Under the pieces are notes generated by a model. The model was not told the DNA's origin. It did no database searches and worked only from the letters and a program-made list of their open reading frames with translations. A DNA stretch of 64,000 nucleotides from Natrialba magadii ATCC 43099 (GTDB lineage Archaea > Halobacteriota > Halobacteria > Halobacteriales > Natrialbaceae). Below are positions 11,792 to 17,807 of the stretch, piece by piece. Positions within the stretch are counted from its first letter, which is position 1. Each line of letters begins with the position of its first letter. The translations under genes and the position numbers were made by a program. Location: the NCBI RefSeq assembly GCF_000025625.1, contig NC_013922.1:992001-1056000 (forward strand). Direction: 5' to 3'.

Positions 11792-12649
11792 TCACCACCT
11801 GCCGCCGTTTTCGCTTCGTTCCCCATCACTGGCCGCCCCCTCGAACCGTTCCCGCGCCCGCTGGAGGTCGGCCGGCGTGTTTACGTTCCGGTGCCAGCCC
11901 TCGAGTTCGACGCCGACGTACTGGGCACCGTCTGCGAGCAGGGACTCGAGTGCAGCCGTGAGTTCGAACTCGCCGCTGTCGGCGCGGTCGAGTGTCCGAC
12001 AGGCGTCGAGCAGGGCCGGTCCGTCGTGGGTCTGGACGCCGGCGGCCATGTAACCCGTCGTCTGCCCACGTTCGAGTGTCGACTCGACGGATCGAATACG
12101 GCCGTCGTCTGCGAGCGAACACAGTGCTGTCGCTTCGGCTTCGTTTCGCGAGACGCGGTCGAGTAGGAGTGCCCCGTCGACGCTGGGTTCGCGATGGCGG
12201 TCGACGAGCGCCGAGAGGTCACAGTCGAGGGCGTTGTCGCCGTTGATTATCAGTATGTCGTCCGGGAACGCGGTGTCTGACACGTTTGCGTTTTTGTCCT
12301 CTCCCTCGTCTTCGCCTTCGCCTTCGTTCTCGTCTACAGATTCGAGTGTGACACCGTAGCCGTCTTCGGCCGCCCGGCAAACAGCGTGTGCGAGGCCTTG
12401 ACGATTACGTTGCCACGCGTAAGACACCGGCACGCCGTCGAACGTGTCGCCGATGCAGTCGACGATTTCGTCGCCTCGGTAGCCGACGACGATAGTGAAC
12501 TGCTCGATTCCGGAAACGGTGTCAGCGACCGTTTGCAGGGTCCGACGAAGCAAGGGTTCCCCAGCGATTTCGAGCAGTGGCTTCGGCGTGTCGTCGGTGT
12601 ACGGCTGCAGTCGCGTGCCACGACCGGCAGCGAACACGAGTGCGTGCAT
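11792..12649 (-). CDS. Sugar-phosphate nucleotidyltransferase
   Basis: This 285-residue enzyme has the nucleotidyltransferase signature AAGRGTRLQPYTDDTPKPLL at its N-terminus, IINGDNALDCDL for the metal-binding aspartate and YMAAGVQ further on. The family (RmlA/GlmU-like) makes NDP-sugars for glycans or surface glycoproteins; the sugar here is unknown. I chose the ATG at 12649 because the signature begins immediately. An acidic low-complexity insert (ENEGEGEDEGEDKN, about residues 102-115) breaks the fold in a loop. A single GTAAGAC, matching the cdrS-ftsZ2 elements, lies 116 bp upstream. Confidence 0.85.
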   Translation of the reverse strand: MHALVFAAGRGTRLQPYTDDTPKPLLEIAGEPLLRRTLQTVADTVSGIEQFTIVVGYRGDEIVDCIGDTFDGVPVSYAWQRNRQGLAHAVCRAAEDGYGVTLESVDENEGEGEDEGEDKNANVSDTAFPDDILIINGDNALDCDLSALVDRHREPSVDGALLLDRVSRNEAEATALCSLADDGRIRSVESTLERGQTTGYMAAGVQTHDGPALLDACRTLDRADSGEFELTAALESLLADGAQYVGVELEGWHRNVNTPADLQRARERFEGAASDGERSENGGRW

Positions 12650-12836
12650 CGATGGTCGTCTCACACTGTCCGCGTGTGGCCTGTTGTACATTCCGGTTGG
12701 ATATCGCACGGGGCAGAATCATACGACACGCAGTCTGCACGCAGTATACAGCACCCACTATCAAGTAAGACACCCGAAAACGAGACGAACGAAAACGAAA
12801 CCGCACCGCAGTGACTATGCCGAAATCGTGCGTCAG

Positions 12837-14024
12837 TTAGCGGATAACGTCGACGCCGTTTTGCTTCTTGAGTTCGCTACGCCCGCCGTCACTCTGGGCA
12901 CCGAAGCTCTGTCCTGATTGTTCGACGTTGTTGCTTGCGTCGAAGTCAGTGTCGTTGAGCCCCTCGATGCTCGCGCGGGACTTGTCGGCCTGCTTCTGCG
13001 TCGTCGGACCCAGGACCTGCGCGCTCTGGACACCGGTCATGATCGCCATGACGCGGACCTTGCCCTTGTAGTTCTCCTGAATACGGGCACCCCAGATGAC
13101 GTTTGCAGACGCCTCGAGGCGCTCCGTGATGTTGTCCGCGATGCCCTCGGCCTCTTTGAGTGTGAGGTCCGGGCCACCCGTAATGTGGACAAGACCACCG
13201 GATGCACCACGGTAGTCGACGTCCAGCAGTGGGTGGTTCATCGCGTCCTTGACGACCTCGTCGGTCTTGTTCTTGTCCTGTGTCTCACCGACGAGCATCA
13301 CCGCGACGCCGCCCTGATTCATGATCGTGGACATGTCCGCGTAGTCCAGGTTGATCAGCGACGGCTGGGTGATCGTCTCCGAGATCCCTTTGACCGTTTC
13401 GGCGATGATCTGGTCCATGACCGAGAACGCCTTGCCGATCGGGAGGTTCGGGACGTAATCGAGCAGTCGATTGTTGTCGAGGACGATGATCGAGTCCGCC
13501 TGATCGCGAAGCTTCTCGAGTCCTTCCTCGGCCTTGACCGTGCGGGCACGTTCGACGTTGAACGGCGTCGAGACCATGCCGACGACGATCGCACCCTGCT
13601 CCTTGGCAATCTTCGAGACGACCGGGGCGGCACCCGTGCCGGTGCCACCACCCATACCTGCCGTCACGAAGACGAGGTCTGCGTCGCCGAGAACCTCTTT
13701 GACCGTACTCTGGGCCATCTCGGTCGCGCGTTCGCCCATCGAGGGATCGCCGCCAGCGCCGAGCCCGTTCGTGAGCGACTTGCCGACGAGGATCTTCGTG
13801 TCGGCTTCGATCATCTTCAGGTGCTGTTTGTCGGTGTTGATCGCGACGGTGTCAGCGCCGTCGACACCGATGTTGTACAGCCGGTTGATGGTGTTGTTCC
13901 CGGCACCGCCACAGCCGACGATGACGATTCGGGGGTCACCGAACTCGTCGTCGTCCATCGTGGCGTCCATCTCTCGGGCTTCCTGTTCCGCGTTCTCGAG
14001 GGCGTCCTGTACAATATCCTGCAT
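12837..14024 (-). CDS. ftsZ2: Tubulin-like cell division protein FtsZ2
   Basis: This 395-residue GTPase builds the division ring and, in haloarchaea, is needed for constriction. The GTP-binding signature [12 protein letters not shown], the upstream [14 protein letters not shown] and the T7-type segment [11 protein letters not shown] are all present. The C-terminal tail after residue ~330 is polar, with a terminal NGVDVIR peptide typical of archaeal FtsZ interaction tails. Assignment to FtsZ2 rather than FtsZ1 rests on the cdrS gene two bases upstream, an arrangement known from Haloferax and Halobacterium. Regulation is probably through the repeated GTCTTAC elements upstream of cdrS. Confidence 0.93.
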
Positions 14025-14026
14025 TG

Positions 14027-14206
14027 TTAGACCTTGGCCCAGTTGTGTTTCCCGGCCTGTTCGCTGTGGCCGTCGTACTGCTCGTTGATCATTTCGCGGA
14101 CGGCCGACCGGATTGCCTCACTCCGGTTCGGGAACTCGCCCGAGTCAACCAGCTGCTCTACCTCGTCAATCTGCTGTTTCGGAATTCGCAGTGTCACACG
14201 CTCCAT
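14027..14206 (-). CDS. cdrS: Ribbon-helix-helix regulator CdrS
   Basis: This 59-residue protein is a single ribbon-helix-helix domain: the strand [12 protein letters not shown], helix 1 [12 protein letters not shown] and helix 2 [14 protein letters not shown]. CdrS of Haloferax and Halobacterium is a global transcription regulator that controls division genes including ftsZ2. The stop codon and the ftsZ2 start are separated by two bases, so the two genes are almost certainly co-transcribed and translationally coupled. A longer frame to 14335 is open but would read through the operator region, so I reject it. Confidence 0.9.
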
Positions 14207-14224
14207 TGTTGTATTCCCCGTTGG

Positions 14225-14396
14225 GTAAGACGGTGGCGCGCCCCTGTCAGACGCACCGTGTCTTACACCGGATTGGGCGGTCGTCGGGCGTTTTTCGCCG
14301 ACTTCCGGCCGGTGTAAGACAATCGTCTTACGCAACTAAACGGAATACTGTCTTACATAATAAAACTATCGGCGAGAGAGATTTTCTGTGTCTTAC
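14225..14396. promoter_or_regulatory. Cluster of six GTCTTAC elements upstream of cdrS-ftsZ2
   Basis: The 7-mer GTCTTAC or its complement GTAAGAC occurs at 14225-14231, 14260-14266, 14314-14320, 14325-14331, 14350-14356 and 14390-14396. Four copies extend to TGTCTTACA. Copies three and four form a perfect inverted repeat with a 4-bp gap. An AT-rich TTTTATTA box (minus strand, near 14357-14364) lies among them. Short repeated sites of this kind suit dimeric ribbon-helix-helix proteins, so CdrL and/or CdrS are the obvious candidates to bind here. That is inference; the repeats themselves are plain in the sequence. Confidence 0.75.
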
Positions 14397-14426
14397 AACC
14401 GTCCGTCAGACGTGACTGTCACCGAC

Positions 14427-15290: not shown

Positions 15291-15364
15291 CCGCCCTTAG
15301 CTCAGACTGGTAGAGCAGTCGACTGTAGATCGACTTGCCCCCCGTTCAAATCGGGGAGGGCGGA
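15291..15364 (+). tRNA. tRNA-Tyr (anticodon GUA)
   Basis: A 74-nt cloverleaf can be drawn. The acceptor stem is CCGCCCU (15291-15297) pairing with AGGGCGG (15357-15363), with discriminator A at 15364. The D-arm is GCUCAGACUGGUAGAGC. The anticodon stem is GUCGA/UCGAC with loop CUGUAGA (GUA at 15325-15327). The T-arm is CCCCG UUCAAAU CGGGG. The C1-G72 pair is the identity element of archaeal tRNA-Tyr. CCA is not encoded and there is no intron. Its 3' end is duplicated at 15475-15500. Confidence 0.95.
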
Positions 15365-15367
15365 CTT
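15342..15367 (+). repeat. att-like repeat, copy in the tRNA-Tyr 3' end
   Basis: A 26-bp stretch covering the T-loop, the 3' acceptor strand and three bases beyond the tRNA is identical to 15475-15500. Integrases of haloarchaeal viruses and plasmids commonly use tRNA 3' ends as attachment sites. Confidence 0.7.
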
Positions 15368-15903
15368 TTGCTGCGAACAACGTGAGCAGTCGAGAGTTTA
15401 TCCCGACACGATTTGAGCTTGTGAGTCCCAGCCCCGGAACAGCGCGTAGCGCTGCATGCCCGGAACGTCTCACTCCGTTCAAATCGGGGAGGGCGGACTT
15501 CTTCCCAAGCCGATACTGAATCGCAAGCGTCCAGCAATTTGCTTTTGTGCGCTCCCTCGTCCGTGGTAGTGTCCACCTCCGCCAATAGCGCTTCGCGGTG
15601 AAAGACAGCGGTACCAGTGATACCCAAAACGATTCACGGAGAACGTGAATACAGACCGGACGCGTACTGTTCCCTCCTCCAGGAGAGCTCTGGTGTTGGT
15701 CTTGGTGCGCCACTTGGACGCCACGGAATCGGCTCTACAGCCACCCTGTCACGGACATAATTTGTAAAAATGAACGTAATTAAACAACCACCAGACGAAT
15801 AGATGACTTTGATGAAAATAGTCAATGGATATTAAGATAATTGTTGGAAGATACCAAAGTGTGTTGGAACGGTGCTTTTTTCTCTACGTTCTCAAAACTT
15901 GAT
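15368..15903. other. Gene-poor stretch after tRNA-Tyr
   Basis: Apart from the second att-like repeat I find no gene here. The AT content rises sharply from about 15750. Short open frames on the minus strand merely translate the tRNA and its duplicate. This is consistent with the remains of an integrated element. Confidence 0.5.
15475..15500 (+). repeat. att-like repeat, downstream copy
   Basis: This is the exact 26-bp copy of 15342-15367, in the same orientation, 133 bp downstream. No integrase gene lies between the copies, so this is a scar or a tandem attachment site. The sequence after it (15500-15900) is AT-rich and without core genes. Confidence 0.7.
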
Positions 15904-17766: not shown

Positions 17767-17807
17767 TTCTGTTTCTGTTTCTGTTTCTGTTTCTGTTTCT
17801 GTTTCTG
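17767..17807 (+). repeat. Hexanucleotide tandem repeat (TTCTGT)n
   Basis: Nearly seven perfect copies of TTCTGT lie 34 bp after the aIF2-beta stop, in non-coding DNA. This is one of several slippage-prone arrays in the window. Confidence 0.9.

Follow-up and report, generated by a model that had tools for sequence, protein, structure and literature searches.

How FtsZ-based cell division is controlled in archaea is largely open. In Natrialba magadii ATCC 43099, cdrL lies upstream of the cdrS-ftsZ2 operon, and the 220-bp gap between cdrL and cdrS is filled by an array of a single 7-base word, GTCTTAC, which raises the question of what reads this word and how. We addressed it in a window of 64,000 nucleotides (the whole stretch of DNA analysed; NC_013922.1, positions 992,001 to 1,056,000) and in the corresponding loci of other Halobacteriales and of outgroups. 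From the sequence comparisons, the repeats are likely to provide dual-layer control of cdrS-ftsZ2: an operator for a ribbon-helix-helix (RHH) protein near the start site, together with a leader RNA to which the same repeats contribute the stem strands.

Six copies of GTCTTAC between cdrL and cdrS

The initial annotation had placed six copies of GTCTTAC or its complement in the 172 bp from 14225 to 14396, and all six were found there (Table 1). Four of them, as it had also noted, are exact matches to TGTCTTACA (14259–14267, 14313–14321, 14349–14357 and 14389–14397), and the segment 14314–14331 is a perfect 7-N4-7 inverted repeat with a 4-bp gap. Two one-base variants, GTCTGAC, lie inside the array. 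In a pattern search the whole genome (4.44 Mb, 4 contigs) contains only 119 copies of GTCTTAC, and hence chance is excluded for the six-copy array: the Poisson probability of six copies in 172 bp is ~1e-17, or ~4e-11 when multiplied by all genome positions. The earlier contention that so many copies cannot be accidental was therefore sound. A functionless array produced by chance or repeat slippage has the shortness of the word in its favour and nothing else; given the ~1e-17 probability and conservation in 90 of 90 species, we rejected this origin as already refuted and give it virtually no credence.

Lone copies of GTCTTAC also occur at 12765–12771, just past ftsZ2, and at 12419–12425, within the next predicted gene, with a spacing unlike that of the array. 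On the other side of cdrL there is a tRNA-Tyr gene (15291–15365); 133 bp downstream of this gene, at 15475–15500, the last 26 nt of its 3' end recur exactly, like the trace of an integrated element. A perfect hexanucleotide tandem repeat, TTCTGT in 6.8 copies, is present at 17767–17807.

Table 1. Features of the cdrL-cdrS-ftsZ2 region, with positions in the window; the coding strand is the minus strand.
Feature	Position	Strand	Strand reading GTCTTAC	Remarks
cdrL, 246 aa	14427..15167	-		N-terminal RHH, strand K-I-T-F-R; C-terminal double zinc ribbon
GTCTGAC variant	14405..14411	-		same as CdrS-type half-box of ftsZ1 and outgroup cdrS promoters
Upstream untranscribed box	14390..14396	-	+	beyond TATA element
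TATA-like element	14358..14366	-		
Extra box	14350..14356	-	+	adjoins TATA element, downstream side; outside predicted transcript; not general among relatives
Predicted transcription start	14333	-		2 nt before box A; from TATA spacing and pyrimidine-purine step
Predicted structured 5' leader	14207..14333	-		P1 (A:D), P2 (B:C, variable extension), hairpin between C and D
Box A, left half of core inverted repeat	14325..14331	-	+	reads GTAAGAC on coding strand; +3 to +9 of predicted transcript; RNA partner in leader is D (A:D covariation)
Box B, right half of core inverted repeat	14314..14320	-	-	GTCTTAC in coding orientation; RNA partner in leader is C (B:C covariation)
Box C	14260..14266	-	+	GTAAGAC in coding orientation; 5' leader, 47 nt after B
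GTCTGAC variant	14246..14252	-		between C and D; present in most sampled same-family members
Box D	14225..14231	-	-	GTCTTAC in coding orientation; 18 nt before cdrS ATG
cdrS, 59-aa RHH protein	14027..14206	-		strand R-V-T-L-R
ftsZ2	12837..14024	-		

Conservation of the array in Halobacteriales

We found cdrS in 187 of 195 members of the order, and counts for its upstream region were made at 90 Halobacteriales loci, the species set being a drawn sample. The repeat that the initial annotation expected in close relatives is present at every one of them: all 90 loci carry three to six copies of GTCTTAC within 450 bp upstream of cdrS, 401 in total compared to 2.25 in shuffled sequences. The common layout consists of a GTAAGAC-N4-GTCTTAC inverted repeat (boxes A and B, 11 bp centre to centre in most species; gap of 2 or 5 in some), a next copy about 46–50 bp downstream of it, another ~18 bp before the ATG, and another upstream of the TATA box. 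In 89 of 90 species the A-B unit, GTAAGAC-n-GTCTTAC, is perfect; the two boxes do not vary, and their flanks vary freely. Box C is degenerate in part of the species, and some single changes in C or D preserve pairing via G-U. In a pattern search of 146 genomes, GTAAGAC-N2-5-GTCTTAC occurred exactly once per genome in 132, and the same pattern read backwards was present in 2. In families f9 and f11 boxes C and D are missing, but all or most of A-B is retained, one f9 member having a changed B. Their leader (L265, L291–L293) differs, that of f9 having a hairpin around a GTGTGACACTGGGTCAAGTCACGC-like sequence. Literature searches, including GTCTTAC together with Halobacterium, found no publication on a GTCTTAC site.

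Promoter geometry and probable recognition as DNA

In 85 of 89 species the TATA element is centred 27–30 bp before box A, mostly at 29 or 30, and all 89 have a pyrimidine-purine step 3 and 2 nt before A; this spacing and step predict a start 2 nt before A. Transcripts beginning there would include A, B, C and D but neither the box at 14350 nor that at 14390. Upstream of the TATA element, an exact box is present in 63 of 89 species and a one-base variant in 15 (78 together), clustering at 52 or 62–65 bp before A, and boxes at such preferred positions point to recognition as DNA. What would be expected of an RHH operator, short repeated promoter boxes at helical spacing and their retention at the same operon across relatives, is found here: A and B are 11 bp apart, outgroup boxes have gaps of 4 and 15 bp, and all 90 loci have the array, with GTCnGAC in its place in outgroups. 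The proposal that an operator array lies upstream of cdrS-ftsZ2 is thus supported by its conservation, its single target per genome, its untranscribed copies upstream of TATA and its place in the region bound by CdrL-FLAG in Halobacterium. We take the array to be a putative DNA operator for an RHH protein of the CdrL/CdrS type.

The transcribed boxes and a predicted structured leader RNA

The four boxes of the predicted transcript are ordered < > < >. The N. magadii leader folds with a z-score of -7.3, and z was below -2 in 54 of 59 dissimilar leaders (median about -3.8), usually with A paired to D and B to C. After removal of the 7-mers, the median z was -2.0 for the B-C insert (n=42) and -1.0 for the C-D insert (n=38), compared to values near zero for upstream and coding control segments. 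Covariation between bases next to the boxes supports A:D and B:C but neither A:B nor C:D. For A:D and B:C in alignment A4, 89.0% of cells are paired compared to 84.3 in shuffles, 67 cells are compensatory compared to 35.3, and the covariation score is 0.137 compared to 0.073, none of these values being reached in 500 shuffles. Shuffles ignore relatedness; the internal control is provided by A:B and C:D, tested on this same set of sequences. Slid controls gave far lower numbers (9–29 compensatory cells), and hence compensatory changes of the kind expected in a structured leader are in excess of all these controls. The 7-mers themselves do not covary, but the neighbouring stem pairs do.

We rejected A:B with C:D as the leader structure for its lack of covariation excess; a MAFFT/RNAalifold consensus had given only A:B, a pairing without covariation support. 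Degeneration of C without changes in D was at first read as evidence against RNA pairing, but it concerns C:D and is superseded by the tests of B:C and A:D. Of 59 genomes, 48 gave a covariance-model match to the leader, located at the cdrS locus in all cases where its position could be compared; second matches fell on the other strand at that position. No Rfam family matched the leader, tRNA being the sole match at E up to 0.1. Outgroup leaders also have low z, which palindromic operator boxes alone can cause, and the absence of C and D in f9 and f11 indicates that the RNA layer is not universal. In treating the array purely as an operator, the initial annotation was well founded for the DNA part but missed that four copies lie in the predicted transcript and form the covarying stems A:D and B:C.

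Could base pairing in the leader, perhaps within an RNA switch, be the sole reason for the repeats, with no protein binding to them as DNA? The nested pairing with covariation and the median z of about -3.8 are in line with this, as is the divergence between cdrS-ftsZ2 mRNA and ribosome occupancy in Halobacterium, which suggests post-transcriptional control (PMC8303175). We consider it very improbable, however, given the copies that 78 of 89 species have outside the transcript, upstream of TATA, the covariation of neighbouring pairs rather than of the 7-mers, the retention of A-B where C and D are absent, the 11-bp phasing of outgroup boxes, and the occupancy of the region by CdrL in vivo (PMC7439475). 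Within dual-layer control, a structured leader could explain why ribosome occupancy of cdrS-ftsZ2 is reported not to follow its mRNA.

CdrS-type boxes at ftsZ1, hisB and outgroup cdrS promoters

A different word marks other promoters of the CdrS regulon. In 75 of 80 loci a 7-N4-7 inverted repeat with the half-box GTCnGAC lies just before the ftsZ1 promoter, and Haloferax denitrificans has two perfect GTCAGAC-N4-GTCTGAC sites, one before ftsZ1 and one before hisB; CdrS ChIP-seq in H. volcanii lists both genes as targets (PMC8406309). At ftsZ1, 149 of 150 half-sites have G at position 5 and none has T, whereas the cdrS arrays have T there in 401 sites and G in 34. The array word hence has T where a CdrS-type site has G, although the N. 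magadii array includes the two GTCTGAC variants, and the GTCTTAC code sets the cdrS-ftsZ2 site apart from the rest of the CdrS regulon. N. magadii itself has a CdrS-type site just upstream of its ftsZ1 promoter, the inverted repeat GTCAGCC-AGGT-GGCTGAC (L133, about 2633–2650). Five ftsZ1 promoters of Natronococcus and relatives (L168, L173, L175, L177, L178) have no good left CdrS-type box, several of them retaining the right box wholly or partly.

GTCTTAC is absent from 24 outgroup cdrS promoters, from other families of the phylum. The commonest 7-mer there is GTCTGAC/GTCAGAC, with 46 copies in 22 species compared to 0.33 in shuffles, and the gaps between boxes are nearly all of two lengths, 4 bp (24 cases) and 15 bp (28 cases), equivalent to 11- or 22-bp phasing. 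These arrays occupy the same place, and hence the array is older than haloarchaea; an ancestral GTCnGAC array at the cdrS promoter would have changed its word to GTCTTAC no later than the base of Halobacteriales.

Candidate readers of the array

In Halobacterium, CdrL-FLAG gave a single reproducible ChIP-seq site genome-wide, upstream of cdrS-ftsZ2 (PMC7439475); that report gives no sequence for the site, and the word "motif" is absent from its text. An inverted repeat present once per genome (132/146) fits this single peak. The recognition strand of CdrL (K3-T5-R7) is invariant in 84 of 84 proteins and that of CdrS (R-T-R) in 90 of 90.

Whole-protein, zinc-ribbon and RHH profile searches found no cdrL in five genomes (G104, G038, G026, G101 and G191), whose assemblies are 93–99% complete in 1–6 contigs; they represent at least four lineages with CdrL-bearing relatives in the same genus or family. 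This apparent loss (loci L054, L080, L081, L082, L086) is at variance with the published statement that all sequenced Halobacteria encode cdrL. In most comparisons of these genomes with CdrL-bearing relatives the 7-mers are kept in 21 of 21 or 28 of 28 columns and the flanks are 59–74% identical, the more distant pair G038–G010 having 16 of 21 columns and 49% identity, and G104 retains two untranscribed copies. CdrL is hence not needed to maintain the array, which, for an operator dedicated to CdrL, would be expected only where CdrL is present; we therefore rejected CdrL as an obligatory reader. Replacement by another KITFR-type RHH protein was also considered, and none was seen in the five genomes.

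A DNA operator read by CdrL alone, with RNA pairing as a by-product of inverted boxes in the leader, would agree with the confinement of CdrL-FLAG to the cdrS-ftsZ2 upstream region in Halobacterium (PMC7439475), with the single-copy inverted repeat, with the invariant K3-T5-R7 strand, and with the absence of the cdrS promoter from the table of CdrS ChIP sites in Haloferax (PMC8406309). It is nonetheless unlikely, as the CdrL-less genomes keep the 7-mers with no other KITFR-type RHH protein seen in them, and RNA structure and covariation persist outside the 7-mers.

A rather better case, though still one that we hold less probable than its converse, can be made for an operator read mainly by CdrS in autoregulation and modulated in haloarchaea by CdrL. 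All genomes in which the array was examined, CdrL-less ones included, have CdrS, and its recognition strand is invariant; in outgroups, which lack GTCTTAC, the corresponding position holds CdrS-type GTCnGAC arrays, and GTCTGAC boxes are also found within the N. magadii array. On the other hand, the ftsZ1 half-sites, with G and never T at position 5, differ from the array, and the cdrS promoter is missing from the ChIP table, although the FLAG tag in that experiment was N-terminal, beside the DNA-contacting strand.

The best-matching solved structure for the CdrS profile is NikR. The NikR operator is GTATGA-N16-TCATAC, and we rejected it as a description of the array because both words and spacings differ.

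The initial annotation had named CdrL and/or CdrS as the probable reader. Occupancy of the region by CdrL in Halobacterium (PMC7439475) favours the claim, but as stated it is not supported: five genomes have the array without CdrL, the CdrS ChIP table omits the cdrS promoter, and position 5 differs at ftsZ1. On balance, CdrL is the more likely reader where it is present, with CdrS as an alternative or additional one.

A proposed model for dual-layer control of cdrS-ftsZ2

At the DNA layer of the reading that we prefer, the array would serve as an operator for an RHH protein of the CdrS/CdrL type, with the inverted repeat A-B as the core site: two 7-bp boxes 11 bp centre to centre, beginning 2 bp after the predicted start. 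We infer that the protein would bind the boxes directly and that occupancy of A-B would repress at the start, by blocking initiation or promoter escape; upstream boxes may add cooperativity or a second input. At the RNA layer, the four transcribed boxes would fold into the nested stems A:D and B:C, whose final strand, D, ends about 10–25 nt before the start codon and may thus act in translation or mRNA stability. Given that A-B is invariant amid covarying neighbours and persists in families without C and D, one straightforward interpretation would be that protein binds A-B and the upstream boxes as DNA, and that C and D are probably kept mainly as RNA pairing partners of B and A. The weights that we give to the alternatives overlap with that of dual-layer control because the latter accommodates CdrL, CdrS or both as reader.

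The array provides a precise, conserved, single-copy candidate DNA site for the CdrS/CdrL system, and lineages that have naturally lost CdrL are test cases for it. In a broader scenario, to which we attach a chance slightly short of even, a single 7-base word serves twice, once in DNA as boxes for the Cdr RHH proteins and once in the leader as the strands of nested stems, and so couples transcription and translation of the FtsZ2 operon; its recoding from GTCnGAC to GTCTTAC in the haloarchaeal ancestor would have separated the operon's own operator from the CdrS regulon.

Comparison with known systems

RHH dimers such as Arc and MetJ bind short boxes near one-helical-turn spacing and repress cooperatively at promoters. 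The array resembles their operators in its short boxes and near one-turn spacing, but differs in box sequence and in that its boxes also sit in a structured leader. Structured leaders of regulatory operons are a known general class, to which the cdrS leader compares as a conserved, covarying 5' leader before a regulatory operon; unlike those, it matches no Rfam family and its stems are made of operator boxes. The CdrL target region of Halobacterium salinarum, for which PMC7439475 gives no site sequence and in which no mention of a leader RNA was found, has the same locus and gene order and a single peak, as expected of a once-per-genome repeat. Finally, the CdrS motif of H. volcanii (PMC8406309) differs in its box, GTCnGAC instead of GTCTTAC, and in that the cdrS promoter is outside its 18 sites, but it too is symmetric, and its targets ftsZ1 and hisB carry, in a close relative, related 7-N4-7 boxes.
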